Source: Rouxiella sp. WC2420
GTDB lineage: Bacteria > Pseudomonadota > Gammaproteobacteria > Enterobacterales > Enterobacteriaceae
Assembly: GCF_041200025.1 (NCBI RefSeq)
Contig: NZ_CP165628.1
Coordinates: 3,596,001-3,660,000, forward strand
Length of the DNA stretch: 64,000 bases
Direction of reading: 5' to 3'
Shown one piece after another: positions 49,572 through 63,523 of this stretch (positions are counted from its first letter, which is position 1; each line of letters opens with the position of its first letter). Both the position numbers and the translations under genes were made by a program. The notes beneath the pieces are model-generated. The model searched no databases. It saw only the letters and a list, made by a program, of their open reading frames with translations, and had not been told where the DNA came from.

Positions 49572-50330
49572 ATGTTTTTAAGGAAATTATCAGGTTTTGT
49601 CCAACGCCTGACTCATTTGGCCACTGCGCTACCTTTAGCGTTAATCCTGATATTAACCAGCACAGCAATGCTATCTTCCGAGGCATTGGCCGCGCCGCGT
49701 CCGCTGCATAAAATTGGCATTATTGGCGGCGGTCAGATGGGATCGACATTAGGCAAACTGTGGGTCGATGCTGGCTATCAGGTAATGTTCGCCTCGCGTC
49801 ATCCAGATGAACTGAAATCGCTTGCCAGCTCTTTGGGGCATAACACCCAGGTCGGCACGGTGCAGCAGGCAACCCAGTTTGGCGACGTGGTAGTGATGGC
49901 GGTTCCCTACGGAGCTTTGCCGGGACTGGGCAAAACGCTGGGACCCGCGTTGAAAAATAAAATCGTACTCGATGTCGGTAATCCGTATCCAGGTCGCGAT
50001 GGTCAAACCGCACAAACCGCGCTGAGCATCGGCAGCGGTCGGGCAAGCGCAAAATTCTTGCCCGGCGCTCAAGTCGTCAGGGCCTTTAACTCGATAGCGG
50101 CCAGCACGTTGGCTTCCGATGCCCATCAATCGCCGCTGATTGCCGTACCGTTGGCCGGAGACAGTCACGCCGCCGTTGAAGCGATTTCTACTTTGATTCA
50201 TGCTGCGGGCTTCGTGCCGGTCGTTACCGGTAATCTTGACAGCGCCAAGCTTTTCCAACCCGGATCATCACTGTTCTTACAGGCTTTAAACGAAAAAGAG
50301 CTGCGCGCTAGCCTGGCCAATCCTTCTTGA
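49572..50330 (+). CDS. Exported NADP-binding (F420-reductase-like) protein
   Basis: 252 aa. A long Sec signal peptide (LALILILTSTAMLSSEALA, cleavage about 40) is followed by a Rossmann fold with GIIGGGQMGSTLGKLW, MFASRHPDELKSLA, DVVVMAVPYGAL and VVRAFNSIAAST. These are the marks of COG2085 NADP-binding enzymes. An export signal on a dinucleotide enzyme is odd. Its stop and the next start share TGATG. Confidence 0.82.
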   Translation: MFLRKLSGFVQRLTHLATALPLALILILTSTAMLSSEALAAPRPLHKIGIIGGGQMGSTLGKLWVDAGYQVMFASRHPDELKSLASSLGHNTQVGTVQQATQFGDVVVMAVPYGALPGLGKTLGPALKNKIVLDVGNPYPGRDGQTAQTALSIGSGRASAKFLPGAQVVRAFNSIAASTLASDAHQSPLIAVPLAGDSHAAVEAISTLIHAAGFVPVVTGNLDSAKLFQPGSSLFLQALNEKELRASLANPS

Positions 50331-51661
50331 TGAGGCTGAAAAATAACTTTTTGCATCGCCTTCTTCGGCCAAGGCTTTGGCATAAAGTGGTGCGCGTACG
50401 CCGTGAAGAAATCGCCCCTCTGCTGTGGGGGTGGTTATACGTTTTTTCACTGCTTTGTGCTTACTACATTATCCGACCAATCCGCGATACGATCAGTACC
50501 GTCGCGGGGGCTAATACCCTGCCCTGGTTATTCAGCGCGGTGCTGGTGACGATGCTGCTATTGCAGTGGCCGTATAATTTCCTGACTCAGCGCCTGCCGC
50601 GTGAACGCTTTATTGCCTACAGCTACCATTTCTGTAGCCTGATTCTGCTGCTGTTCGCCGCGCTGTTCTTTCTGCCTGGTGGATTAAATAACCGCTGGGT
50701 TGGTCGGATTTTCTTTATCTGGGTCTCAGTTTTCAATCTATTTGCCGTCTCGGTTTTTTGGGCGCTGATTGTCGATGTCTTTGATACCCGACGAGGAAAG
50801 AGACTGTTTGGATTGCTGGCGGCCGCAGCCACAGTGGGTGCAATAGCCGGTTCTACAGTCACTGCCTTGCTGGCCCGACACCTCTCAACTTCAGCGCTGT
50901 TGGTGCTATCGGCATTGCTGGTGCAGATTTCGGTATTCAGCGCGGTGAGATTATCGCGACGCGGGGCGCAGCTAAAGAAGCCTGCCGAAGAAACTACCGG
51001 CAATATGTTGGTGAACGAAACGGCCAAAAACGTGCTGACACCCCTGTTGGCCGGAATTCGACAAACGATAAAATCTCCTTATTTGCTAGGTATCTGCGGT
51101 TATATTCTGTTTTACTCAGTCACTTCAACCCTGCTTTATTTTCAGCAAGCCAGCATCGTTAGGCAGGCTTTCAGCGATGAAAGTCAGCGTACCGCCTTTT
51201 TTGCCAGCGTCGATCTGGCGATCAATATTCTGACCTTACTCTGTCAGTTGACGGTTACGGGTCGTATCATCTCCCGTTTTGGTACACCTTATACTTTGGC
51301 GCTGCTGCCTTTTATTAGCATCATCGGTTTTGCCTGGCTGGGTTGGGCACCTTCTCTAAGCATTCTGGTTGGATTCACTATTTTACGGCGGGCGGTTAAT
51401 TTTGCTTTGGCTCGACCAAGTCGTGAAATCCTGTTTACCGTAGTCAGCAAGCAGGAAAAATATCATGCAAAGGTGTTTATCGACACCTTGGTTTATCGCA
51501 CCGGTGACCAGATTGGCGCATGGTCCTACCAGGCGCTAAGTGTATTAGGGCTGGCATTAGCGCCGATGGCGATTTTTAGCGTAGCACTGGCCTGTGGGTG
51601 GATGTTACTCAGCTTTTTATTGGGAAAATCTCAGGAAAAGATCAGTTTTAAAAGCCCTTGA
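50330..51661 (+). CDS. Npt1/NTT-like nucleotide transporter family membrane protein
   Basis: 443 aa with 10-12 membrane helices. The block LLCAYYIIRPIRDTISTVAG is the family hallmark of ATP/ADP-translocase (NTT/Npt) relatives. Later VFWALIVDVFDTRRGKRLFG and NFALARPSREILFTVV fit the same group. The start overlaps the preceding stop by one base (TGATG), so translation is coupled. Substrate unproven; free-living bacteria carry such proteins with unknown cargo. Confidence 0.75.
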   Translation: MRLKNNFLHRLLRPRLWHKVVRVRREEIAPLLWGWLYVFSLLCAYYIIRPIRDTISTVAGANTLPWLFSAVLVTMLLLQWPYNFLTQRLPRERFIAYSYHFCSLILLLFAALFFLPGGLNNRWVGRIFFIWVSVFNLFAVSVFWALIVDVFDTRRGKRLFGLLAAAATVGAIAGSTVTALLARHLSTSALLVLSALLVQISVFSAVRLSRRGAQLKKPAEETTGNMLVNETAKNVLTPLLAGIRQTIKSPYLLGICGYILFYSVTSTLLYFQQASIVRQAFSDESQRTAFFASVDLAINILTLLCQLTVTGRIISRFGTPYTLALLPFISIIGFAWLGWAPSLSILVGFTILRRAVNFALARPSREILFTVVSKQEKYHAKVFIDTLVYRTGDQIGAWSYQALSVLGLALAPMAIFSVALACGWMLLSFLLGKSQEKISFKSP

Positions 51662-51917
51662 TTGCTGATGGTTTTTTTAATAAATCACCATTAAACGCCC
51701 GACTTGACGACTTCAACTTTATTTGAATATTTACTGAATGAGTTTTGTGCGAATCGGATAAATACTAGCTTCAGGGATTTGATACAGATACAAAGCTAAT
51801 TATCTCCCAAGATAATTTTAATCAGAATATTCCTCTATTTTTTTACATCTTGAAACCTTATTCCGAATTTAAATCCGGTGATAAAAACTTAGCATGGTGG
51901 AGTTTTTTTAACGGGTA
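51662..51917 (+). other. AT-rich spacer upstream of the sugar-porter MFS gene
   Basis: 256 bases, strongly AT-rich, with no supported gene. It likely holds the promoter of the next gene. No clear operator. Confidence 0.4.
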
Positions 51918-53345
51918 ATGGTACTTATGGAATTCGCACATTCATCGTCTTTATCGCATCAGTCGGCGGCAATTAATGCCCCTGAGCTGATCACCAGGAT
52001 AGACGCCCTGCCCTCATCACCGGGACTGTGGCGCTTTATAATATTGTTGGCAATAGGTGGTTTCTTTGAACTCTACGATCTGTTCCAAACGGCTTATATT
52101 AGCCCGGGATTGATCGCTGAAGGCATTTTCCACACCGGCAGCGCTGGCGTATTTGGTATTTCGGATCAGGCCGCTTTCGCCTCTTCGACCTTCCTCGGCC
52201 TGTTTGTCGGCACCAGCCTTCTGAGTCCGTTGGCCGACAAGTTTGGTCGTCGCCTGACCTTTATGTTTGCCCTGTTGTGGTACAGCTTTTTCACTCTGCT
52301 TATCGTCTTTCAGAACCAGGCCGAATGGATAATTTTCCTGCGCTTTCTGGTCGGTGTTGGCTTGGGTATCGAGCTGGTAACCATCGACACCTATCTGGTT
52401 GAAATGGTGCCTACTCGCCTGCGCAGTAAAGCCTTCGCCTTTTCATTTTTCATCCAGTTTATGTCGGTCCCGGTGGTAGCGCTGATTTCATGGTGGTTCG
52501 TTCCGCATACCTGGTTTGGCCTTACCGGATGGCGCTACGTGTTGTTGGTCAGCGTAGTGTTTTCACTGTTTATCTGGATCGTGCGCAAAAAACTGCCTGA
52601 GTCTCCTCGCTGGCTGTTACAGCATGGCAAAGCTGATAAAGCCCTTGAAGTGCTTGAAGATCTGGAAAAACAGTGTGGAGCAGCGAAGGTAGAACGCCTT
52701 GAGCGTCTGGTGACTCTACATGATGAACAACAGTTCGAGCGTCGCGGAAGATTCAAAGAAATCTGGACGCCACAGTTCCGTTCTCGCACTATTATGCTAA
52801 TGATTTTCAATATATTTCAGGCCATTGGCTTCTTTGGTTTCGGCAACTGGTTACCTGCTCTGCTGGCCGGACAAGGCAGCAGCTTCACCCACAGCCTGTC
52901 TTACTCAATAGTAATCACGCTCGGTTTTCCTCTGGGGTGTCTGATTTCAGTACTCTACGCCGACAAGTTCGAGATCAAGTGGCAGGTAGTGGCAGGCGCG
53001 CTGGGGGTAGTCATTTTTGGTGCGCTATTTGGTCTCCAGCGCAGTCCAATCGGCATGATCTTCTGCGGATTTATGGTCAGCTACTGTAACGCCTGGATGA
53101 CCTATAGTTTCCACTCTTATCAAACCGAGGTGTTCCCGACGCGTATTCGCGTCACTGCCGTTGGCTTCTGCTACTCGTTTAGCCGCCTATCGACAGTGTT
53201 TAGCAGCATTATTATCGGAATGTTTTTGCAATACACCGGCAATATTGGCGTACTGTCGTTTATCGTCGCCAGTATGATCATTGTGGTGTTGGTTATCTCG
53301 ATATTGGGACCGAAAACCAAAGACATAGAGCTAGAAAATATTTGA
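51918..53345 (+). CDS. Sugar-porter-type MFS transporter
   Basis: 475 aa, 12 membrane helices. Motifs LADKFGRRLTF, FLRFLVGVGLGIELVTIDTYL, EMVPTRLRSKAFA, KKLPESPRWLLQHGK and FPTRIRVTAVGFCYS are of the sugar/aromatic-acid porter family. ATG 51918 or 51927 are both possible. The substrate cannot be read. Single gene, convergent with the FUSC genes. Confidence 0.85.
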   Translation: MVLMEFAHSSSLSHQSAAINAPELITRIDALPSSPGLWRFIILLAIGGFFELYDLFQTAYISPGLIAEGIFHTGSAGVFGISDQAAFASSTFLGLFVGTSLLSPLADKFGRRLTFMFALLWYSFFTLLIVFQNQAEWIIFLRFLVGVGLGIELVTIDTYLVEMVPTRLRSKAFAFSFFIQFMSVPVVALISWWFVPHTWFGLTGWRYVLLVSVVFSLFIWIVRKKLPESPRWLLQHGKADKALEVLEDLEKQCGAAKVERLERLVTLHDEQQFERRGRFKEIWTPQFRSRTIMLMIFNIFQAIGFFGFGNWLPALLAGQGSSFTHSLSYSIVITLGFPLGCLISVLYADKFEIKWQVVAGALGVVIFGALFGLQRSPIGMIFCGFMVSYCNAWMTYSFHSYQTEVFPTRIRVTAVGFCYSFSRLSTVFSSIIIGMFLQYTGNIGVLSFIVASMIIVVLVISILGPKTKDIELENI

Positions 53346-53358
53346 TAAAACAGGCAAT

Positions 53359-53387
53359 GCTGCGGACCGAAAACGCAGGTCCGCAGC
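53359..53387. terminator. Hairpin between the MFS gene and FUSC gene
   Basis: A perfect 10-bp stem GCTGCGGACC / GGTCCGCAGC with a 9-base loop between convergent genes. No T run. Confidence 0.6.
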
Positions 53388-53402
53388 AGCGTCAGGCAGG
53401 AT

Positions 53403-55448
53403 TTAAACGGTTGGCCAGCGCTCTGAAGAATAGAGCCACATACGGATATTAAATAGATAAAACAGCGGCATAAATAGATGCATATCGGCCCGACATGCTG
53501 GTTCCAGCTTTAATAACAGCTGATTCAGCTCGCCCAGCAGCGATGGCGGAGGCGCTACGTAAATGTTTTTCAGCCTGCTCTTAATATAATTGTTTATCTC
53601 AAACAGCAGCGCGTCTGTATCAATACCGTTGTTTCTCAACAACTCTTCATGTCTGGCGTAAAAATCAAATACGCTAACGCCAATCCAGATTTCTGTTATC
53701 AGATTGCCCCCCAGGGCCACATTAGGAATAGGGTCCACTTTGATACGCGGCAAAATGATATTAACTTTATCCAGCATTCCCGCCACATATTGCTGACGCC
53801 CCAGCAATGACGATTTATTCATTTTAATTGCCTGGGTGAACTGCAATAGATCTTTTATTCCTCTGCGCAGCGCGCGCTTTGCAGTCCAGGAAGGTCGTTT
53901 ATTACGAATAATTGCCGTAACCAGCACCGCAATAAGAATGCCGACAATGGTAGAGATTGCCGAGTTGATAATCGTCAGTGGATCGGGCCGGAAATCATGG
54001 CTCATGGCCATAAAGCTTGGGATCTGCGTCGAGATAATCAGACCAAAGATATTAGTCGCCGGATTGGCAATGACGAACCCCAAAGCCAGTAGACCCGGCA
54101 CTAAACACATCACTAATGCTTCAAAGCTGGTCGCCGTGGGGATAAGAATCAGGGTATAAATCAGGCTGGCAGCGATGGCGATAATGACCGCCTTGAGGAA
54201 AACCTGCAGCGAGGCAATCGGGCTGTCTTGAGTCGCAAAAAACGAACAGGCAATCGATGCCATCACTGGCGCGGTACCGCCGTGCTTCCAGCCGCTGCCA
54301 ATCCAGAACAGACAGCAAAGCATAGTGACGATAAAAATCGTCAGTGAAGACAGGAAAATCAGTCCTTTATCAGCATGCTTTTTAAATAGCTTAAACTTCG
54401 CAGGGTTCCTTTCATCGCCTAACGCGTTGACTTTTTCTTTTACTGCCAGATAAGCGTGAGCTATACGGATAAAGTTTTGCAGGCGCTCAACCAGGCCGGT
54501 TAACAATAACCCCTCCTCCGCGCTCATCTCTCCACGGATATAGAGATCTTTGATGCTTTCCTGTGAAGCTATCATCTCATCCACCAGCACGGTGGTATCA
54601 CCAAACTGCTGAGGATTATTGAGCCAAATTAGAAAGTGGCTAAAAGTTTCGGCAACAAAATTAGGAAAGGTAATACCGTGATCGCTCAGCAAGATCAGCC
54701 GTTTCTCAATCGCACTCAGGGTCGGGATTAAATAAGAAAGATGCTGATATTGCACCGTCACCATGCGGATTAGTGTACGCGCCGAGTCGCCCTCATAAAC
54801 GCAGTGGGTGATCAACACTTCGACGTTGACCGGATAATTGGCCATCTGGATCAGGATATTTTCATGCTCCAGCGACTTTTCTTTCGACACGCGCGTCAGC
54901 ATGTCCCCGCAAATTTTCTTGGCGCTTTCAAACCAGTTGTTGACGCTATTTTCCAGCAACGTACTCATACGAACCGGGAAAATGATCATATGTACCAAGG
55001 TGCTACAGACGATGGCGACAGCGATTTCTTCAATTCGCGAAATCACCGTATAGGTGATGTCCAACGGGGAGGTGACGTCGGCAAAGCCCATAATCGCCGC
55101 ACTGTATCCTGCCAGCATAAAGACATAACTTTTAGGCGTGCGATCGTGCAGCGAAAGATAAAGGCAGAAAGCAATCCACAGCGAAACGCTTACGCTGAAA
55201 AGCAGCGGATGCTGAACCGTGATCGGATAAATAAAGAAAATAAATGCGCCTCCCAACAGCGTTCCCAAAAGACGAAATACGGACTTTGAGAGCGTCGACG
55301 CGGAGTAAAGCTGAGAGATGATAAAAACTGAGGTCAAGGACCAGGCAGGCTTATCAAGATTAAGTTTTAAAGCGATGTATAAAGCCAGGAATGCAGCAAT
55401 ACAGGTTTTTACCGAGAACAAAAAAGCATTTTTTGTCAGCCACTTCAT
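53403..55448 (-). CDS. FUSC-family (AaeB/YccS-like) membrane protein, copy 1
   Basis: 681 aa. Two bundles of about five membrane helices each, separated by a large cytoplasmic helical region, the FUSC architecture of aromatic-acid exporters. The start is MKWLTKNAFLFSVKTCIAAF. LHDRTPKSYVFMLAGYSAAI and IRNKRPSWTAKRALRRGI are shared with copy 2. It differs from AaeB, and no AaeA adaptor or AaeX is adjacent. Own promoter likely in 55449-55560. Confidence 0.85.
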   Translation of the reverse strand: MKWLTKNAFLFSVKTCIAAFLALYIALKLNLDKPAWSLTSVFIISQLYSASTLSKSVFRLLGTLLGGAFIFFIYPITVQHPLLFSVSVSLWIAFCLYLSLHDRTPKSYVFMLAGYSAAIMGFADVTSPLDITYTVISRIEEIAVAIVCSTLVHMIIFPVRMSTLLENSVNNWFESAKKICGDMLTRVSKEKSLEHENILIQMANYPVNVEVLITHCVYEGDSARTLIRMVTVQYQHLSYLIPTLSAIEKRLILLSDHGITFPNFVAETFSHFLIWLNNPQQFGDTTVLVDEMIASQESIKDLYIRGEMSAEEGLLLTGLVERLQNFIRIAHAYLAVKEKVNALGDERNPAKFKLFKKHADKGLIFLSSLTIFIVTMLCCLFWIGSGWKHGGTAPVMASIACSFFATQDSPIASLQVFLKAVIIAIAASLIYTLILIPTATSFEALVMCLVPGLLALGFVIANPATNIFGLIISTQIPSFMAMSHDFRPDPLTIINSAISTIVGILIAVLVTAIIRNKRPSWTAKRALRRGIKDLLQFTQAIKMNKSSLLGRQQYVAGMLDKVNIILPRIKVDPIPNVALGGNLITEIWIGVSVFDFYARHEELLRNNGIDTDALLFEINNYIKSRLKNIYVAPPPSLLGELNQLLLKLEPACRADMHLFMPLFYLFNIRMWLYSSERWPTV

Positions 55449-55560
55449 TTTTTATTTAAACAAATCACGTAAATTTTAAAGAATTATTTTATACCTCTAA
55501 TAAAGCAGTTATCTTGTTTTGTTTGTAACAAAGATGTTCACAATTATGTATAAATAAAAC

Positions 55561-55584
55561 GAAAAGTCACATTAAAGTGACTTT
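55561..55584 (-). terminator. Terminator of FUSC copy 2
   Basis: Stem AAAGTCAC / GTGACTTT with a 6-base loop, followed on the minus strand by TTCGTTTTATTT, 25 bases after the copy 2 stop. Confidence 0.8.
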
Positions 55585-55609
55585 CCGTTATTAATCTGAA
55601 ACTTAGTGG

Positions 55610-57655
55610 TTATTGTTCAGGCCATCTCTGCGCGGGATACAGCGCCATGCGGATGTTGAACAGATAAAACAATGGGGTATATAACTGCATGTTCGAGCGG
55701 CACAGAAACTCAGTTCGCAACAGCAATTTGTCGAGTTCGTCCAAAAGTGACTGCGGCGGCTTGATATAGATATTTTTTAGCCTTTTTTTATAATAGCGAG
55801 TAATTTCAGCCATTAACGCGTCGCTATCGAGAATATTTTCCCTGAGTAAATCCTGATGACGGGCGTAAAAATCGTAGCAATTGACCCCCAGCCATATCTC
55901 GGTAATCAAATTCCCCCCCAAAGCTACGTCAGGAATTGGGTCGACGGTGTTTCGCGGCAGAATGATATTTATCTTATCGATCATACTGGCCACATACCTC
56001 TGACGCGCCAATAACGATGAGGCATTCATTTTGATTTCAGAGGTAAACTGCAACAGCTCTTTAATACCGCGACGCAGCACACGTTTCGCAGTCCAGGAAG
56101 GCCGTTTGTTACGGATAACCGCCGTCAAAACCACGGCAATCACAATACCGACTACCGTAGAAACCGACGCATTAATGATCGACAGCAAATCAGGTTTAAG
56201 ATTGTGAGTCATACCGATAAAACCCGGGATCTGGGTGGCAACAATTAGCCCAAGGAAGTTGGTTGAGGGGTTGGCAATAACTAAACCCAGGGCAAGAAGA
56301 CCGGGTGCCAGCACAATGATTAACGATTCGAAGTTAATCGCAGGAGGAATTAACAGCCCGACATAAAAGATACTGATGACAATGGCCACCAACACGCCTT
56401 TCAGGAATACTTTCATCGAGCCAACCGGGCTGTCCATCGAAGCAAAGAATGAGCACACCACCGCTCCCATCATCGGCGCGGTAGAGCCATCTTTCCAGCC
56501 GGTGCCTATCCAGAACATGCAACCAATCATGGTGGCAGTAAAAGCGGTAAAACAAGAAAGCAGGATCATGCCACGGTCGGCGTGTTTCCTGATGAGCTTG
56601 ACTTTGTCGCGTTTTCTCTCGGTACCCATGCTGCTGACGCGTTCTTTAGCCCCCATGTAAGACTCGGACAAGCGAATAAAATTCTGCAGACGCTCGAGCA
56701 GGCCAATCAGCAACAGGCCCTCTTCGGCACTGATTTCTTCGCGCTCATATTGTCCCTTGATGCGTTCCTGAGAGGCGCTGATGTCGCTTTCAATCCACTT
56801 GGCTTGCCCGCTTTGCTCCGGACTGTTGAGCCATTGCAGAAAATGATTAAAGGACTCTGCGACATAGTCAGGAAAAACAATCCCCTGCTCCGCCAACAGG
56901 CTGAGGCGTTTTTCAATAGCAGTTAACGTAGGGATTAAATAAGACAGATGTTGGTACTGAGCACTCACTAGCCGAATGAGCTTACGCGCAGAATCGCCTT
57001 CATACACCAAGTGAGTGATCAACGTTTCCACAGACAGTGGATAGTTGGCCATTTGCACCAGAATCTGCGCCCTTTCCGGCGTACTGTCTTTCGATTCGGC
57101 GGTCAATAATTCGTTGCAAAGCTTTTTGGCGCTTTCATACCAATTGCTAACACTACTCTCGAGCAGATTGCGCATGCGCACCGGGAACACCAGCATGTGG
57201 ATCAGACTGCTGCAAATAATGGCAACAGTGATTTCTTCAACACGGGAAATAACGGTGTAGGTTATCCCGAGCGGCGTGGTGACATCGGCAAAGCCCATGA
57301 TTGCGGCACTATAGCCAGCCAACATGAAGATGTAACTTTTGGGCGTGCGATCGTGAAGCGAGAGGAACAGGCAGCAGGCAACCCATAGCGACACGCTGAG
57401 ACTGAAAAGTACAGGATGCTGAACGGTAAGGGGATAGATGATGAAAATAAAAATCCCGCCTAAAACGGTGCCTAAGAAGCGAAAAATCGCTTTAGAAACA
57501 GTGGAGGCTGAATAAAGTTGTGATATGACATAAACCGAAACCATGGCCCAGGCTGGTTTATCGAGGTTAAGTTTAAGCGCAATGTAAAGCGCCAGAAAGG
57601 CCGCAATACAGGTCTTTACGGCAAATAAAATCGCACTTTTTGATAACCATTTCAT
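55610..57655 (-). CDS. FUSC-family (AaeB/YccS-like) membrane protein, copy 2
   Basis: 681 aa, exactly the length of copy 1 and similar along its whole length (for example KTCIAAFLALYIALKLNLDK is identical in both). A tandem duplication is clear. The cytoplasmic middle has diverged more than the membrane parts. Its own terminator separates it from copy 1. Substrate unknown. Confidence 0.85.
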   Translation of the reverse strand: MKWLSKSAILFAVKTCIAAFLALYIALKLNLDKPAWAMVSVYVISQLYSASTVSKAIFRFLGTVLGGIFIFIIYPLTVQHPVLFSLSVSLWVACCLFLSLHDRTPKSYIFMLAGYSAAIMGFADVTTPLGITYTVISRVEEITVAIICSSLIHMLVFPVRMRNLLESSVSNWYESAKKLCNELLTAESKDSTPERAQILVQMANYPLSVETLITHLVYEGDSARKLIRLVSAQYQHLSYLIPTLTAIEKRLSLLAEQGIVFPDYVAESFNHFLQWLNSPEQSGQAKWIESDISASQERIKGQYEREEISAEEGLLLIGLLERLQNFIRLSESYMGAKERVSSMGTERKRDKVKLIRKHADRGMILLSCFTAFTATMIGCMFWIGTGWKDGSTAPMMGAVVCSFFASMDSPVGSMKVFLKGVLVAIVISIFYVGLLIPPAINFESLIIVLAPGLLALGLVIANPSTNFLGLIVATQIPGFIGMTHNLKPDLLSIINASVSTVVGIVIAVVLTAVIRNKRPSWTAKRVLRRGIKELLQFTSEIKMNASSLLARQRYVASMIDKINIILPRNTVDPIPDVALGGNLITEIWLGVNCYDFYARHQDLLRENILDSDALMAEITRYYKKRLKNIYIKPPQSLLDELDKLLLRTEFLCRSNMQLYTPLFYLFNIRMALYPAQRWPEQ

Positions 57656-57773
57656 AGTAGGATCAACAGCTCGCCATTTTCAAAAATGTCATTTTATACC
57701 GATCGGAATAGAACTGCTGCTTTATGATGATTTTAAGTTTGTAACAAAATAATCACAAGTTGAAAAGATTCAA

Positions 57774-57794
57774 CGGGCAGGTCGATGCTGCCCG
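57774..57794 (-). terminator. Hairpin at the end of the lysis operon
   Basis: Stem CGGGCAG / CTGCCCG with a 7-base loop, 30 bases after the Rz1 stop, followed on the minus strand by a T-rich tract (TTGAATCTTTTC). Confidence 0.6.
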
Positions 57795-57825
57795 GCGAAT
57801 ATCCCTTAATAATTAACGGCGCAGG

Positions 57826-58149
57826 CTACTTCTGTCTTGCCTGTTCTATCTGGCGAATGCCATCCAGTTGGGCATTGCAGTTTTGCAAATCAGTCAATAA
57901 AAGCTCGTTCCACACAACAGATGCTCCGTAGTTGAGGGGGTCAGCGGGAGGAGACGACGGCTGACACTGTGCCAGAAGGCTTGCCGGAATTGGTGTTACT
58001 GGAACTTTGACGTACTGCGTTGTAGTGGTTGAGCAGGCTGTCATTAGCGGCAGCAGGAACAGGCACCACAGCGCAGGGCGCCGTTGCAAGCACCGTTTTA
58101 ATAACTGTCTGCCGCTGCTGACTGGCGGTCTGGCTACTTTTCTGTTCAT
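57826..58149 (-). CDS. Phage o-spanin lipoprotein (Rz1-like)
   Basis: Outer-membrane spanin partner, 107 aa. A signal peptide ends at lipobox LMTACS (Cys about 39). The mature part is Pro-rich (VKVPVTPIPASLL, SSPPADP) and is longer than classical Rz1. It starts within the Rz gene in another frame, the arrangement expected for Rz/Rz1 pairs. Confidence 0.8.
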   Translation of the reverse strand: MNRKVARPPVSSGRQLLKRCLQRRPALWCLFLLPLMTACSTTTTQYVKVPVTPIPASLLAQCQPSSPPADPLNYGASVVWNELLLTDLQNCNAQLDGIRQIEQARQK

Positions 58150-58360
58150 TCAGCGTCGCTCCGGCTATCTGGTTGAAAATCCCTACGCTCAGGGCCTGTG
58201 ACTGAGTGATAAACTCGGCCTGCTCCTTTTGTTGGGTCAGTGCAGTCAATGCCGTGGCCTGCGTTAGCGTTTTTCCATAAAAATGAAAGGCAACGGCCAG
58301 CAACAGGCCTATGCAGGCGAGGATCAGCACAGTAGTCATCACCGCAATTTTATTAATCAT
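57941..58360 (-). CDS. Phage i-spanin (Rz-like)
   Basis: 139 aa from the ATG at 58360. One N-terminal membrane helix (TTVLILACIGLLLAVAFHFY) is followed by a helical Gln/Thr-rich periplasmic stretch (LTALTQQKEQAEFITQSQAL) and a Ser-rich tail. The start overlaps the endolysin stop by four bases (ATGA). The Rz1-type gene overlaps its 3' half. Confidence 0.8.
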   Translation of the reverse strand: MINKIAVMTTVLILACIGLLLAVAFHFYGKTLTQATALTALTQQKEQAEFITQSQALSVGIFNQIAGATLNEQKSSQTASQQRQTVIKTVLATAPCAVVPVPAAANDSLLNHYNAVRQSSSNTNSGKPSGTVSAVVSSR

Positions 58361-58851
58361 GATTGCCTCATCAGGCACACTTGCCGGTCGATTTCCCGCC
58401 GGTTTATCAGCCCGCGATTGCGCTGTTTATTCACGTAAACCCACTGGCGCAGGTCATCGCAGGCAGCCTTGGTATCACCGGCATTGAGGTGTCGGAGTAA
58501 AGAAGAGTGTTTAAAAGCGCCGACACCGACGTTGTAGGCGAAGGAATACAGCGCAGCTCGGGTGTAATTATCGATGGGGACTTTGACTGCCGCATCGACG
58601 GCTTTTTTGACCGGCTGCAAGTGTTTTAGCAACAGAGCCTCACACTCCTTGTCCGAGTAATATTTCCCCGGAACAACATCAGCCCCTGTAATACCACTAC
58701 AAACGGTCCATACCCCACCCGCATCGCGATAAGGGGTACTTTTTTGCCCCTCAACGCCCTCCGGCCCGCCAAGTAAGGCAATCACAATAGTTAATGCGGT
58801 AGTGCCGCCCAATTTGACTAATTTGCTTCTCAATGCTGCTGACATAGCCAT
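58357..58851 (-). CDS. Phage SAR endolysin (GH24 lysozyme)
   Basis: Muramidase of 164 aa. The catalytic Glu34, Asp43 and Thr49 have the T4 lysozyme spacing (E-x8-D-x5-T), in VEGQKSTPYRDAGGVWT. A weakly hydrophobic Gly/Ala-rich N-terminus (about 14-29) is a signal-arrest-release segment, so export needs only Sec and depolarisation. Start and holin stop overlap by one base (TGATG). Confidence 0.9.
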   Translation of the reverse strand: MAMSAALRSKLVKLGGTTALTIVIALLGGPEGVEGQKSTPYRDAGGVWTVCSGITGADVVPGKYYSDKECEALLLKHLQPVKKAVDAAVKVPIDNYTRAALYSFAYNVGVGAFKHSSLLRHLNAGDTKAACDDLRQWVYVNKQRNRGLINRREIDRQVCLMRQS

Positions 58852-59156
58852 CAGGAACCTACCTTATTCATCACATCTTTCACCTCTTCGGCGACGCTTG
58901 CGGTATCCACTTCCGTATTATTTTTTCTACCGGCAAGATAGGAACGAAGGATCTCGGTTCTTTTCGAGTCTTCATTTTCGCGGTTTACCAGGGCACGTTT
59001 GTTGTTGCGATAAGAGTTAAAAGATAGCAATGCGCCGAAGATGGCGCAGAACACATAAATCCATTGTTCAGTGGTCAGACCCGCCGCACTAAAGAGTGCA
59101 GTGATCGTGGCCCAAAAATGCGTCCAGAATCCGTCACTTTGTGGGTTCATTTTCAT
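58851..59156 (-). CDS. Phage holin
   Basis: 101 aa from the ATG at 59156, which has GGAGGTGGAG upstream. Two predicted membrane helices (FWTHFWATITALFSAAGL and WIYVFCAIFGALLSFNSY) and a charged C-terminal tail. A second Met two codons on (MKM) gives a possible dual start, as in holin/antiholin pairs. A further upstream start has no ribosome site. First gene of the lysis operon. Confidence 0.8.
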   Translation of the reverse strand: MKMNPQSDGFWTHFWATITALFSAAGLTTEQWIYVFCAIFGALLSFNSYRNNKRALVNRENEDSKRTEILRSYLAGRKNNTEVDTASVAEEVKDVMNKVGS

Positions 59157-59305
59157 AGTCTCCACCTCCAACTGTTGTTGGCTGTGCTCTGTAGTCATAG
59201 TTTCAGCGCCGGAGTCAGTTGCGACATAAAGTCTTGGGAGGTTGATTACTCGGCACTAAAGAGGTAAACAAAAAGGGCCACCGAAGTGACCCTTAGAATG
59301 AAACT

Positions 59306-59327
59306 AAAAACCCTGCCAAAGCAGGGT
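59306..59327 (-). terminator. Terminator between the acidic protein gene and holin
   Basis: Stem ACCCTGC / GCAGGGT with a 4-base loop, followed on the minus strand by TTTTT. A second weaker hairpin (AAGGGCCAC / GTGACCCTT) lies at about 59272-59294. Confidence 0.85.
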
Positions 59328-59365
59328 AAATTTGTTTGTTTAAACTAATCAATTCACCTAGGCGC

Positions 59366-59776
59366 TTAGAAATATTTTTCCTTTAGCGCAACCAGTTCGG
59401 CCTCAGCTTCCTGACCCAAAACTTCAATCCCCTTTTCCACAAACTCTACAAAAGCCTGAGCCTTGGCCTTAAAATCATCCAGGGGTGAACTTGCATCAGC
59501 TTGAGCCAAACTGCTGGCCGATTCGGTATCAGAAGATGATGTATCTGTAGAAGCCGCTGCCAATGCGGCATTGGCAGAAGCTACGTCCGTCACTGGTGTC
59601 ACCGAGGCGGTATCCGCAGCAGTGGCATCTGCCGCAGGTGTCGCATCAGCAACGGTTGCATTTGAAACATTAGGGGCTAATTCACTCATGGTTATTTCCT
59701 CTTCAGTGGTATTTTCATTGGCATTTGCCGGTGTGTAATAAAGGCTTTTCAGCCAGTAGAAAAAACTTTTAAACAT
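59366..59776 (-). CDS. Acidic low-complexity phage protein with two possible starts
   Basis: 136 aa. An aromatic N-terminus (MFKSFFYWLKSLYYTP) leads into a long Ala/Thr/Ser/Asp-rich disordered stretch, then an amphipathic helix (DDFKAKAQAFVEFVEKGIEV). AGAGGTG precedes the first ATG. A second in-frame ATG at 59689 (MSELAPNVSNAT) has its own strong site GAGGAAATAACC, so a 107 aa form is likely. No family recognised. Confidence 0.65.
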   Translation of the reverse strand: MFKSFFYWLKSLYYTPANANENTTEEEITMSELAPNVSNATVADATPAADATAADTASVTPVTDVASANAALAAASTDTSSSDTESASSLAQADASSPLDDFKAKAQAFVEFVEKGIEVLGQEAEAELVALKEKYF

Positions 59777-59807
59777 TCAACATCACCTCTTTTTGAGGTC
59801 TAAACGC

Positions 59808-59832
59808 AAAAAACCCCGCCGAAGCGAGGTTT
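59808..59832 (-). terminator. Terminator after Q, candidate late tR'
   Basis: Stem AAACCCCGC / GCGAGGTTT (one mismatch) with a 4-base loop and a T run on the minus strand, 35 bases after Q. In lambdoid phages the late promoter is just after Q and its transcript meets an intrinsic terminator (tR') that Q overcomes. Position and strand fit. Confidence 0.7.
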
Positions 59833-59866
59833 TACATTCTGGGTTAGCGACGTGACTCAGTAACCA

Positions 59867-60301
59867 CTATTGATAGAGTAAACGGCTTATTGCGGACCGC
59901 GTGAAGATTTCTTTAGGTTCGCGATAAATTTCAACAATCGGGTCCATATCCAGCTTTACATCTAACATTGCCAGACATCCTTCGACGAATCCTTCAGCCA
60001 TTTGAAGCATGATCCGCACCAGTTTTTCATCACGTTTTATAGAGCGGGCAATCGCACGCTTAGGCTGCTTCATGACATAGTGCAGAATAAGCAGCTGATA
60101 TTCTTCAGGCCGCGAAGTCTGGAGGCGCGTGACACAGCCGTCAATTAACAGTCCGTCATCATCGCAGCAGCTGATTCGCGAAGATGAAGGGCGTGGCAAT
60201 AATCCCCGGAAACCGGCAGCCGTTTTCTGCCAATCCAACTGACTGTGATCCGCTGCCGCCCAGCCGCCCCACCGCTCCAGAACTTGTGGTATATCTCTCA
60301 T
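59867..60301 (-). CDS. Phage antitermination protein Q
   Basis: Q-like antiterminator (Phage_antitermQ), 144 aa. RDIPQVLERWGGWAAADHSQ and TAAGFRGLLP are the family marks, then HYVMKQPKRAIARSIKRDEK. It would let RNA polymerase pass the terminator at 59808-59832 to reach the lysis genes on the same strand. The operator array at 60410-60472 is only 110 bases upstream. Confidence 0.85.
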   Translation of the reverse strand: MRDIPQVLERWGGWAAADHSQLDWQKTAAGFRGLLPRPSSSRISCCDDDGLLIDGCVTRLQTSRPEEYQLLILHYVMKQPKRAIARSIKRDEKLVRIMLQMAEGFVEGCLAMLDVKLDMDPIVEIYREPKEIFTRSAISRLLYQ

Positions 60302-60409
60302 AAGATGTCCTCCAAAGATCGCTTATTCATACCTTGCCATTTAGCGGCTGAGTTGATTTCCCAGGTTAAAACATCCATACCCAAGTTCTATTAGCTACGC
60401 ATCACCCTG

Positions 60410-60472
60410 CTAAGTTAACTTAGATTTTATATTCAAACTTAAGTTTGATCAAATAAAACTAAGTTAACTTAG
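60410..60472. promoter_or_regulatory. Triple palindromic operator array (O1-O3)
   Basis: Three palindromes: CTAAGTTAACTTAG at 60410-60423, TCAAACTTAAGTTTGA at 60433-60448, CTAAGTTAACTTAG at 60459-60472. The first and third are identical and all are perfect. Centres are 24 and 25 bases apart, like the three-site operators of lambdoid repressors. The likely ligand is the CI-type protein at 61118. Confidence 0.82.
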
Positions 60473-60913
60473 CAAAAATTAGTGAACATAACTTATGTGA
60501 ATCTGGGAGGTGTCGAGTGAGAAACTGCTGCGCATGAATAAAAATACCGAGGCGAAATCTCTAAAATACTTAGCAATATCAAGAAATAAATAAGAATTGT
60601 GGGTCCAGCCTTAAGAGAACCTAAAGCTAAATTATTGAAATTTTCAGACAGTGAATCTAATGGATAAAATTTGACCTGCCACCGATTTTGGCCAACTGTA
60701 CTACCGATACTCAATAGTTTCTTATATGTACTAATCAATGGCTGAAGTGGCGTAATACATTCCGCTCAGATCAAAAAATATTTTTTCAAATCCCTTGAAT
60801 ACCCAGCATAAAGTGAATGGCCTTAATAAACAGCATGTTAAGCCATCCATAAAGTAATGATATTTTAATTTACGCCATTTGAGTTGCGGCCGCGGCATGC
60901 TTTTTACGGGATT
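60473..60913. other. AT-rich remnant DNA between operators and the Q duplicate
   Basis: About 440 bases with no sound gene. A strong ribosome site (GGGAGGTG, about 60507) precedes a GTG at 60519 that meets a stop after six codons, perhaps the stump of a deleted early gene. Otherwise nothing recognised. Confidence 0.4.
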
Positions 60914-61012
60914 GCTACGTGACTCAGTAACCACTTTTAACAGAGTAAATGGCTTTTTGCGGACCGTGTAAGCTTTTTTGGTTTGCTAAAGTCATCAACA
61001 TAAGTCATACCT
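60914..61012 (-). pseudogene. Second copy of the Q 3' end (remnant)
   Basis: 60914-60985 repeats 59847-59920, the last codons of Q and about 20 bases after its stop. In the Q frame it reads KPKKLTRSAKSHLLC against EPKEIFTRSAISRLLYQ in the intact gene. The non-coding part ACGTGACTCAGTAACCACT is identical in both. Upstream of the remnant the frame meets stops near 61018, so only the C-terminal tail survives. Confidence 0.75.
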
Positions 61013-61041
61013 AAGAATTATTAATCCTTGATCTTCCCAAC

Positions 61042-61079
61042 CTAAGTTAAATTAGCTAGTATGCCTATAGTTAAGTTTT
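61042..61079 (+). promoter_or_regulatory. Operators upstream of the repressor gene (O4, O5)
   Basis: CTAAGTTAAATTAG at 61042-61055 differs from O1 and O3 by one base. A weaker site at about 61066-61079 matches at 8 of 14 positions and is spaced the same 24-25 bases. They lie 40-75 bases before the repressor start, so autoregulation is likely. Confidence 0.7.
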
Positions 61080-61117
61080 ATCATATGCAACGTAGATAAG
61101 ATTGGTGAGAGTAATTT

Positions 61118-61750
61118 ATGGAATCAGTAGGAGCGAGACTAAAAAGACTACGCCGTGTGACTAAAACAACACAAAAAGTCCTCGGTGAATACTGCGGTGT
61201 ATCAGACGTTACGGTGGGCTATTGGGAGAAGGATTTAAACGTTCCTAAAGCAGAGTCACTGTTAAAGCTTGCAAAATACTTTAACACCACTGAAGCTTAT
61301 GTGTTGTATGGTACTGATTTTACAGGCCTTCAGCCGTTGGCAACCAGCGTCAGGAAAATCCCGATACTCTCATGGGTACAAGCTGGGGTGTTTACAGAAT
61401 CGGAATCAAGTGAACTTTTTGAGAGAGCAGAGTACTGGATGGAAACCGGATTACGAGTGTCTTCAGACGCATTCGCTTTAACAGTGCGTGGTGATTCAAT
61501 GACTAATCCATCTGGTCTGCCTAGCATCCCGGAAGGCTCTACTGTGATTGTCGATCCCAATGTCGAAGCCACCAATGGCAAAATTGTTGTCGCTCGTATA
61601 GCCGGTACTAGCGAGGCCACAATGAAAAAGTTAGTCATTGATGGTCCAAACAAATACCTTGTTCCTCTCAATCCGCGCTATGCCAATATTCCGATTTGCG
61701 ACAACTGTGAAATTATTGGTGTCGTTCGCGGAGTGCAGTACGAAATCTAA
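61118..61750 (+). CDS. CI-type phage repressor (XRE + S24 peptidase)
   Basis: 210 aa. N-terminal helix-turn-helix (TQKVLGEYCGVSDVTVGYWE, about 18-37). The S24 self-cleaving domain has the Ala89-Gly90 site in WVQAGVF, catalytic Ser127 in VRGDSMTNP and Lys170 in ATMKKLVIDG. It should be inactivated by RecA during DNA damage. Conserved residues are complete, so it may still work. Confidence 0.92.
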   Translation: MESVGARLKRLRRVTKTTQKVLGEYCGVSDVTVGYWEKDLNVPKAESLLKLAKYFNTTEAYVLYGTDFTGLQPLATSVRKIPILSWVQAGVFTESESSELFERAEYWMETGLRVSSDAFALTVRGDSMTNPSGLPSIPEGSTVIVDPNVEATNGKIVVARIAGTSEATMKKLVIDGPNKYLVPLNPRYANIPICDNCEIIGVVRGVQYEI

Positions 61751-61988
61751 AGAAATTCTGATAGTAAAAAGAGTTGAGGCTAGGCGGCTTTTGCTCTTTT
61801 TTCACCTTCGAAAATTAAGCTAAAGTTTTTAAAATGGAGGGTATATTCATCTTCATTGCGTATAAAATCGCCGAAACTCACTGTAATGAATCTCATCAAG
61901 AGACTTGAACCGCGGGCCTTGCGACTTGAATTATCTGCAATATCAACCATATTCAAAGGGAATTTTACCTTGTTATGAGGAAATACAG
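61751..61988 (+). other. Spacer between repressor and yodC-like gene
   Basis: About 240 AT-rich bases with no supported gene. AAAAGAG...CTCTTTTTT at 61768-61802 could be a loose terminator for the repressor gene. Confidence 0.35.
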
Positions 61989-62171
61989 ATGGCAGAGAAA
62001 TTTGAAGCGGGCGACGTAGTACTGCTTAAATCTGGTGGTCCAAAAATGACTATCGACAGTTACGATCAGGATGATGAAAAATACCGCTGTGAGTGGTTTG
62101 TCGATGGCAAAGTGCAACACCAACTATTCAGAGAGTCTTCACTGGAGAAATACGTTTCACCTGGTTGGTAG
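61989..62171 (+). CDS. YodC-family (DUF2158) protein
   Basis: 60 aa from the ATG at 61989, with TGAGGAAA upstream. VVLLKSGGPKMTIDSYD and CEWFVDGKVQHQLFRESSLE match the YodC/DUF2158 fold, a small protein often found in prophages. Function unknown. Confidence 0.85.
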   Translation: MAEKFEAGDVVLLKSGGPKMTIDSYDQDDEKYRCEWFVDGKVQHQLFRESSLEKYVSPGW

Positions 62172-62341
62172 CCTAGGCAGAATATCAAATATGCATTTAA
62201 TGATTTGATTATTTGAATGCATTCCCTATAAACTAATCACGGCTAAGTCTACCCAAATAATGTATGTGCTTTTGAAAACGCCACTATTGATGGCGTCAAT
62301 ATTCGCTACATGCATTACGTTAACTTTTTAAACTAATACTT

Positions 62342-62572
62342 TTAGTTTAAAAATACAGGTAAGCGTGACAATTCGGTGTTATGAATATACTCATCAAGGA
62401 ATGCCGCCATAACCTTTGCCTGCTCAAGAGTAAGGCCAGTAAACAGCTTTCCTGCAGTGGGAAGCTGAGGTAAATCCTCGATTTGGTAATTGAACCGTAA
62501 ACAGGCGAGTTGTTGGCATTCACAACAATCCAGACTTGATGGAATATAGACAAGCACGTCTTCATTTGACAT
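62342..62572 (-). CDS. Small hypothetical protein
   Basis: 76 aa, MSNEDVLVYIPSSLDCCECQ with three close Cys, then LTLEQAKVMAAFLDEYI. AAAGGAAG lies upstream, supporting a real gene. No family recognised. It is oriented against its neighbours. Confidence 0.6.
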   Translation of the reverse strand: MSNEDVLVYIPSSLDCCECQQLACLRFNYQIEDLPQLPTAGKLFTGLTLEQAKVMAAFLDEYIHNTELSRLPVFLN

Positions 62573-62918
62573 ATATAAACTTCCTTTCTGATTGCATGGA
62601 AAAACCAGACTAACACGCTCCTAATAAGTATTAAATCCTAAAAATCATTCAGCCATCTCAAAATTCATATATCGTTAGCCACTCATTAATTTCAAATAAC
62701 TCTCTTGAATAAGTTAAAGAATTAACTATTAAAGCGAACTATGTATATTTATTTAAATAAATATTCAAAACTTATCGCCAAATTCAAAGCTGGAATTAAC
62801 GCTATTTCCCTAAGTTAAGGAAAAAATTAGCTAAAAACTCACCGTTTTATCTACAAGCAAGTTTTGTATTAAGCATGTCCCCTTATGGGCGTTATTAATC
62901 ATAATGTTATAACTCACA
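62573..62918 (+). other. AT-rich spacer with an operator-like half-site
   Basis: 346 bases with no supported gene. CTAAGTTAAGG at 62810-62820 followed by AATTAGCTA resembles O4 (CTAAGTTAAATTAGCTAG) split by seven extra bases. Otherwise nothing recognised. Confidence 0.4.
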
Positions 62919-63190
62919 ATGCTTTTTTGCGATCTCTTACTGGAGCAAATTGTTGAAGGCTCGCGCGAGCCTTCGCGTGAAACTAACGTGATTGCCGTTC
63001 AGGTCAAGGCGATCAGAACTGCTTTCGGATTGTCACAAAGCGGCTTCGCAAAACTGTTTTCAGTGAGCGTTGATACGTTAAAAACTCGGAGCAAGGCCGG
63101 CGAGAACCCACTGGCCCTGCCAAAGCACTGCTTAGAGCCATTGAGCGCGACCCGCAGCACGTCATCCCCGCCCTGTCAGCCAAAGGCTAA
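62919..63190 (+). pseudogene. Frameshifted HTH antitoxin (HigA/NadS type)
   Basis: The first frame reads AIRTAFGLSQSGFAKLFSVS and VDTLKT, a typical antitoxin helix-turn-helix. The next expected residues appear in the other frame: EQGRREPTGPAKALLRAIER and then DPQHVIPALSAKG ending at 63190. A one-base deletion near 63086 (ACTCGGAGCAA where ACTTGGGAGCAA is expected) explains it. No toxin gene is adjacent. Confidence 0.8.
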
Positions 63191-63287
63191 CTCCGCTTTT
63201 ACGGCAAGTTTTCAATAAAGCATCTTTTTGAATTTCTTTTCAATCAGATGCTTTAAATAAAATCCCTATCTACCTAACAAATTACCT

Positions 63288-63512
63288 CAGGTTTTCTGCG
63301 CAGCTGCTAGGGATGAAGCAAAGGCAAAATTTCCTGAAATTGAATTCGATTTCACCTTTCATGATTTGAGGGCGAAAGACATTTCGGATTTGACCGGAAA
63401 TCTATACAACAAGCAGGCGATTACCGGGCATAAAAATGCATCGCAAACTGCGATTTATGACAGAAAAATGAAGGTCGTTCCTACGGTGGTGACCAATAAT
63501 ATTATGAAATGA
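63288..63512 (+). pseudogene. Tyrosine integrase, C-terminal fragment
   Basis: About 74 codons ending at 63512. Catalytic residues of the C-terminal half are visible: His and Arg in FHDLRAKD, His in ITGHKN and the nucleophile Tyr in AIYDRKM. The N-terminal domains are missing. The fragment ends 90 bases from the 3' end of leuZ and points towards it, the usual place for a phage integrase beside its tRNA target. Confidence 0.88.
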
Positions 63513-63523
63513 TATTATGAAAT
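63499..63523 (+). repeat. Tandem 12-bp direct repeat at the integrase end
   Basis: ATATTATGAAAT occurs at 63499-63510 and 63512-63523, separated by one base, covering the integrase stop. It may be a slipped duplication or arm-type binding sites. Confidence 0.6.

Follow-up and report, generated by a model that had tools for sequence, protein, structure and literature searches.

In lambdoid prophages such as lambda and P22, the early switch consists of CI, OR and Cro, and the late switch consists of Q. In Yersinia entomophaga, release by the T10SS is described as SOS-insensitive (PMC10847048), and the system is reported to be under a PhoB-like regulator (PMC10101115). In Listeria, a tailocin and a prophage with CI-like repressors are described as being under shared control (PMC6872733). 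We analysed a 64,000-nt stretch of DNA from Rouxiella sp. WC2420, hereinafter designated the window, which contains an islet of phage-type genes. In a literature search, no title or abstract start described this islet.

The islet has the order CI-OR-Q-(cargo)-holin-lysozyme-Rz/Rz1 and lies between the same host genes in the species that carry it. Its flanks in the window, in Rouxiella silvae (L005, G003) and in a further member of the genus (G005) are FUSC-like genes and tRNA-Leu/Cys/Gly; the host gene names FUSC, pgsA, uvrC and uvrY are our own assignments, made from the sequences. Two adjacent related 681-aa membrane proteins at 53403-57655, which we take to be FUSC-like, lie beside the islet and are present also in G001, G003 and G005. 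As in a lambdoid immunity region, a multi-site operator adjoins an S24-type CI gene. The islet is probably a non-mobile remnant of a lambdoid prophage in which a CI-controlled pR reads into Q, and which has been kept by selection. Its control region comprises the following features.

59273..59327, minus strand: two terminator-like hairpins ahead of the holin gene (hairpin scan)
59810..59833, minus strand: intrinsic-terminator-like hairpin after Q (hairpin scan)
59850..59863, minus strand: TTACTGAGTCACGT, core of a probable Q-dependent late promoter element, directly 3' of Q
59867..60301, minus strand: Q antiterminator, 144 aa (PF06530, 164.4 bits)
60410..60472, no strand: array A, three-site OR-type operator (sites 60410-60423, 60433-60448 and 60459-60472)
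60424..60452, minus strand: pR-like promoter facing Q, TTGATC-17-TAAAAT, inside array A, at the same place in R. silvae and aligned relatives
60475..60543, plus strand: probable leftover 5' end of a second CI, adjoining array A (in-register MAFFT alignment)
60908..60969, minus strand: remnant of a second Q 3' end with late element, 85% identical to 59841-59902
61042..61104, no strand: array B, decayed operator copy preceding CI (repeat of array A, by alignment)
61118..61750, plus strand: CI repressor, 210 aa, HTH and S24 (PF00717, 96.2 bits; PF01381, 33.5 bits)

An earlier note on this DNA had described two identical 14-bp palindromes and a related 16-bp one with centres 24-25 bases apart, and we find exactly this at 60410-60472. 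Specifically, both outer sites of array A (60410-60423 and 60459-60472) read CTAAGTTAACTTAG, the middle site (60433-60448) reads TCAAACTTAAGTTTGA, and the site centres are spaced by 24 and 25 bp. Array A thus holds three perfect 14-bp palindromes within 63 nt, out of 11 in the whole window; the expectation is 0.098 per 820 nt under a first-order Markov model built on 60301-61120, array sites included. With up to one mismatch, the 14-mer occurs genome-wide (host, two contigs) solely at 60410, 60459 and 61042. A near-identical and a weaker site had also been noted ahead of the repressor gene at the same spacing, and both are there: 61042-61055 has one mismatch to the array A 14-mer, and the centre of the weak site 61066-61079 lies 24 bp from its centre. 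The third position of array B, 61091-61104, reads CGTAGATAAGATTG and is decayed. Because 60410-60467 and 61042-61099 form an ungapped 58-nt repeat with 71% identity, array B looks like array A with a decayed third position.

Among 26 loci of CI relatives analysed, 24 have a CI match at E<=1e-40 (L096 and L097 do not). They comprise four Rouxiella rows (L004, L005, L051 and L052, with L005 and L051 on the same contig) and 20 loci from outside the genus (L006, L007, L018-L026 and L075-L083); low-identity CI relatives (30-38%; L008-L017 and L027-L040) were left out of the array comparison. The same array with the same spacing lies directly ahead of CI in 20 of 20 non-Rouxiella relatives examined, many of which are near-identical phages and hence not 20 independent cases. 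Searched with up to four mismatches to the window 14-mer, the outer sites were located in 19 of these loci, at -85 to -88 and -36 to -39 relative to the start of CI; in the twentieth (L081) they were present in a separate examination. The first divergent ORF is in every case short and Cro-like, with its start 87-110 bp from CI, and the Cro-type ORFs scanned match P22_Cro (4/4). The array of the CI relatives therefore faces a Cro-type ORF in 20/20 loci; the earlier note had stated that the operator of an intact lambdoid phage would face early genes. OL-type sites beyond CI are present in Yersinia-type phages; in the window, no site within three mismatches, as for a second operator (OL) past CI, occurs after 61055. 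Taken together, these comparisons support arrays A and B as the operator (OR) of the islet CI, to which CI is predicted to bind. The possibility that they are sites of another regulator is ruled out by the genome-wide 14-mer search and by the tie of the array to CI in relatives.

R. silvae and G005 each have a single array, placed directly between CI and Q, without Cro; Q is the first divergent ORF, and its start is 211 bp away from that of CI. By eye, no window ORF flanking the arrays resembles Cro. The distance from array A to the start of Q, which lies downstream of it, is 108 bp, close to the 110 bases estimated earlier. Array A contains a single promoter-like match, oriented toward Q, and R. 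silvae has a match at the same place, plus a second one facing CI. The totals of promoter-like matches are not above those of shuffles (4 vs 5.8 in the window, 2 vs 4.3 in R. silvae), so that the argument for the promoter is one of position and conservation.

The arrangement recurs across the genus, sampled here by six genomes that include Serratia sp. M24T3 (L004, G004), which belongs to the same species as the window genome. A CI match at E<=1e-60 is found in four of the six and an islet-type holin in five; by species, the islet is present in 4/5, one of them (G002) seen in part. Contig C8 of G002 begins inside a similar array, with one site and TATTAT (-10 box) before Q, and its neighbouring contig begins in tRNA-Gly; G002 has no CI match at E<=1e-60. 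The remaining genome, G001, has neither a CI nor an islet-type holin match, and other genes occupy the stretch between its FUSC gene and tRNA-Leu. The islet is therefore dispensable. These data support a repressor-to-Q short circuit that is old and common to several Rouxiella species. A recent local deletion is ruled out, because the arrangement occupies the same chromosomal position in other species. The earlier view that a deletion had put Q under the repressor holds insofar as the promoter in array A faces Q, but the deletion is old rather than peculiar to this strain. Similarly, Q and lysis had been thought to be directly under the repressor in a compact layout. Q does face the array, but Q, terminators and a conserved element precede the lysis genes, and a variable cargo slot separates Q from the holin gene.

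The window differs from R. silvae and G005 in having two arrays, and the DNA around them contains remnants of a second unit. The alignment of the CI remnant beside array A is modest, with a local score of 19.0 that was reached by 3/300 shuffles. Left of array B, the Q remnant at 60908-60969 has not kept the hairpin. Elsewhere in 60473-60907, neither a further CI remnant past its first 70 nt nor Q sequence could be aligned better than in shuffles (30/300 and 51/300, respectively). The simplest history, and the best fit to these sequences, would be two CI-OR-Q units, with CI lost from one and most of Q from the other. The five sites had been taken for one split system; two units, one without CI and the other without Q, fit better. 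A single looped operator of five sites is likewise not favoured, because two copies with complementary losses explain both sequence and order better. In the window species, array A and Q would derive from one copy and CI and array B from the other, and CI would act on array A across ~0.6 kb of remnant DNA. The supply of CI in this species is uncertain, because array B, the sole array before CI in the window, has decayed.

Q is the sole PF06530 match in the host genome. The element TTACTGAGTCACGT is kept after Q in all Rouxiella islets. With one mismatch, it is found again at two further places: ahead of the Ig-like gene Ig1 of R. silvae, where a separate hairpin comes next, and behind a Q of 43% identity in G005. 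TTACTGAGTCACGT is probably part of a Q-dependent late promoter, and, judging from Ig1, cargo genes look as if they were able to carry a Q-dependent promoter of their own. The copy of the Q 3' element and the hairpin upstream of Ig1 occupy ~3855-3990 of L005, minus strand. Three terminator-like hairpins on the minus strand precede the holin gene; the scanned 3 kb contains eight on both strands, vs 2.9 +- 1.3 in shuffles.

CI carries QAG at 88, GDSM at 125 and MKK at 169, which we take to be the cleavage site and the Ser/Lys pair of a self-cleaving repressor. A DNA-damage trigger would be expected from its S24 domain. Sequence, synteny, conservation and intact ORFs are what is directly seen for the islet, and from these we infer CI binding, promoter activity, Q action, induction and a benefit of the islet. 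In the proposed mechanism, CI occupies array A and thereby would cover pR, from which transcription would now lead directly to Q. Loss of CI, which is to be expected of an S24 repressor after DNA damage, would allow pR to make Q. Q would then act at the conserved element directly 3' of its own gene and carry polymerase past the terminators, so that the genes for protein A, the holin, the endolysin and the spanins would be transcribed and the cell would lyse. These downstream genes and the distal end of the islet are as follows.

57826..58149, minus strand: Rz1-like spanin, overlapping Rz (PF23793; phrog_3001)
57941..58378, minus strand: Rz-like spanin (phrog_214)
58357..58851, minus strand: endolysin, a phage lysozyme (PF00959, 135.7 bits)
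58851..59198, minus strand: holin (phrog_1350, E 3.3e-19)
59366..59776, minus strand: protein A, 136 aa, in the cargo slot between Q and holin (phrog_22600, unknown function)
63345..63523, plus strand: integrase gene remnant near tRNA-Leu, 68.7% DNA identity to an annotated integrase of Escherichia phage Fostie
63602-63688: tRNA-Leu

The islet thus contains a holin, endolysin and spanin cassette outside a phage. The holin start is likely the ATG-AAA-ATG at 59156, following GGAGGTGGAG, and presumably resembles the dual start of lambda S. A second ATG in the frame of protein A, at 59689, follows a GAGG stretch that resembles a ribosome-binding site, and the hydrophobic N-terminal part of the protein may therefore be optional. 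Unlike a functional prophage, the islet has its integrase only as a remnant, and no structural or tail genes occur among the islet ORFs scanned. Between CI and tRNA-Leu, a small ORF at 61905-62171 matches DUF2158, and a similar stretch is present in M24T3. A search for attachment repeats gave no exact match above 11 nt when the tRNA region was compared with 50001-63500, and none of >=12 nt in L005 or L052.

The integrase remnant, the decayed array B, the Q remnant and the missing phage genes indicate heavy decay, and G001 lacks the islet altogether, as would be expected if the islet were neutral debris, namely a common cryptic prophage whose last genes have not decayed yet. We regard this as unlikely, since CI, Q, holin, lysozyme, Rz and Rz1 are unbroken in several species and combine low dN/dS with large synonymous divergence, and the place and order of the islet are the same across species. 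Specifically, between the window and R. silvae (Nei-Gojobori method), omega is 0.07 for Q, 0.05 for lysozyme and 0.14 for holin, values that strain a neutral reading; it is 0.28 for Rz and 0.30 for Rz1, both distorted by their mutual overlap. For CI, pN is 0.028 and pS 0.78 (dS not computable), and protein A is under weak constraint, with pN of 0.285 and pS of 0.807. Islet dS, where computable, ranges from 0.62 to 2.3, similar to host dS (1.17 for pgsA, 1.86 for uvrC and 0.76 for uvrY), and the islet is therefore about as old as the species split. Part of the low dN/dS could stem from a period of residence in phages or from genes exchanged later.

Between the window and M24T3, array A shows no differences in 67 nt (60408-60474), and array A together with the Q leader no changes in 173 nt. 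This is fewer than in the adjacent spacer, which is the most variable stretch (20/433 changed; p 0.0017), and fewer than in four pooled noncoding and remnant stretches (36/1269; p 0.017). Array B has 5 differences in 58 nt, above array A (p 0.02) and not significantly above islet spacer (p 0.17), and the Q remnant has 1/62 changed. The constancy of array A ahead of Q between strains, together with omega of Q and lysozyme as low as that of functional genes, argues against the idea that only CI was kept, as immunity against related phages, while Q and the lysis genes persist by chance. CI is indeed the best-conserved islet protein (96% vs R. silvae), and phages carrying the same operator exist, but we hold this explanation to be very unlikely.

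Under the mechanism favoured here, several species would have retained the islet by selection, probably for the benefit of something that lysis sets free, and the content of the cargo slot is variable. Between Q and the protein A homologue, R. silvae and G005 encode two Big_1 Ig-like proteins with an A-like C-terminus, and G002 has one smaller Ig-like/A fusion. A tailspike-like protein (phrog_20911) with an N-terminal Big_1 follows Rz1 in G003, G005 and G002, and is constrained between R. silvae and G005 (dN 0.013, dS 0.425). The window islet lacks it, and the only match in that genome is in a tailocin-like locus; homologues elsewhere, in prophages and tailocins, have other N-termini. Relatives of solved structure were not found at E<=0.01. 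In G002 a member of this family adjoins a Wzc-type polysaccharide gene, and the tailspike-like protein may act as a free exopolysaccharide-cutting enzyme, judging from such sequence context. L111, L112 and L113 encode tailspike-like proteins with a signal-like N-terminus, presumably of Tat type, and the L112 copy adjoins a Wzc-type gene.

The presence of Ig-like and tailspike-like proteins in the cassette of the relatives suggests that proteins would be released by lysis. A more tentative reading, somewhat less likely than not, is a bacterial suicide-release system: the genus would have kept CI-OR-Q because DNA damage then makes a fraction of the cells lyse and set free a variable set of proteins, with the Ig-like and tailspike-like proteins as the cargo in R. 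silvae and relatives. Protein A may not be a specific cargo. A-like proteins occur in 8/295 family genomes, and all 11 A-like loci examined, two of them islets, have a lysozyme relative nearby; protein A may therefore be a common phage lysis-region gene. In phage records, neither protein A (by tblastn) nor its R. silvae homologue has a match at E<=0.01.

The tailocin-like locus of the window genome (L067/L119, G000:C1:2.899-2.915 Mb) encodes its own S24 CI, a Q-like protein (phrog_753), a holin, sheath, baseplate and tailspike. Genes related to the islet lysozyme or spanins are absent beside it, in a search that covered endolysins of PF00959 type only, and no repeats were found before its CI. 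Lysis genes of the islet might serve such an element in trans. The locus has CI, a Q-like protein and holin and lacks an islet-like lysozyme or spanin, and all three genomes with the tailocin sheath gene (three of six in the genus) carry the islet. However, the sheath gene is missing from G003 and G005, both of which have the islet, and service in trans seems quite improbable.

Our results suggest that the islet is a phage lysis cassette kept by bacteria, a reused system rather than junk. It shows that a temperate phage can be reduced to very little and still persist as a control circuit, with a single repressor, a single operator, a single antiterminator and a lysis cassette. Were it to function in the way proposed here, it would be a minimal natural system for how phage lysis genes turn into bacterial functions, and it would couple the release of proteins through lysis to DNA damage in a genus of environmental bacteria. 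Like a lambdoid prophage, the islet has a three-site operator over pR, an S24-type repressor, Q, holin, endolysin and Rz/Rz1. Unlike a lambdoid prophage, it lacks Cro at the operator, head and tail genes, and further sites after CI, and its pR reads directly into Q. With the tailocins, such as the Listeria monocin with its CI-like repressor, it shares phage-derived, repressor-controlled lysis kept by the host, and it differs in having no tail genes among the ORFs scanned. With the T10SS it has in common that holin, endolysin and spanins of phage type form a cassette outside a phage, accompanied by other proteins for release. In contrast to the T10SS, the islet keeps the phage repressor, operator and Q and is predicted to respond to DNA damage; were the suicide-release reading true, the islet would amount to a release route resembling the T10SS, under the control of SOS and Q antitermination.
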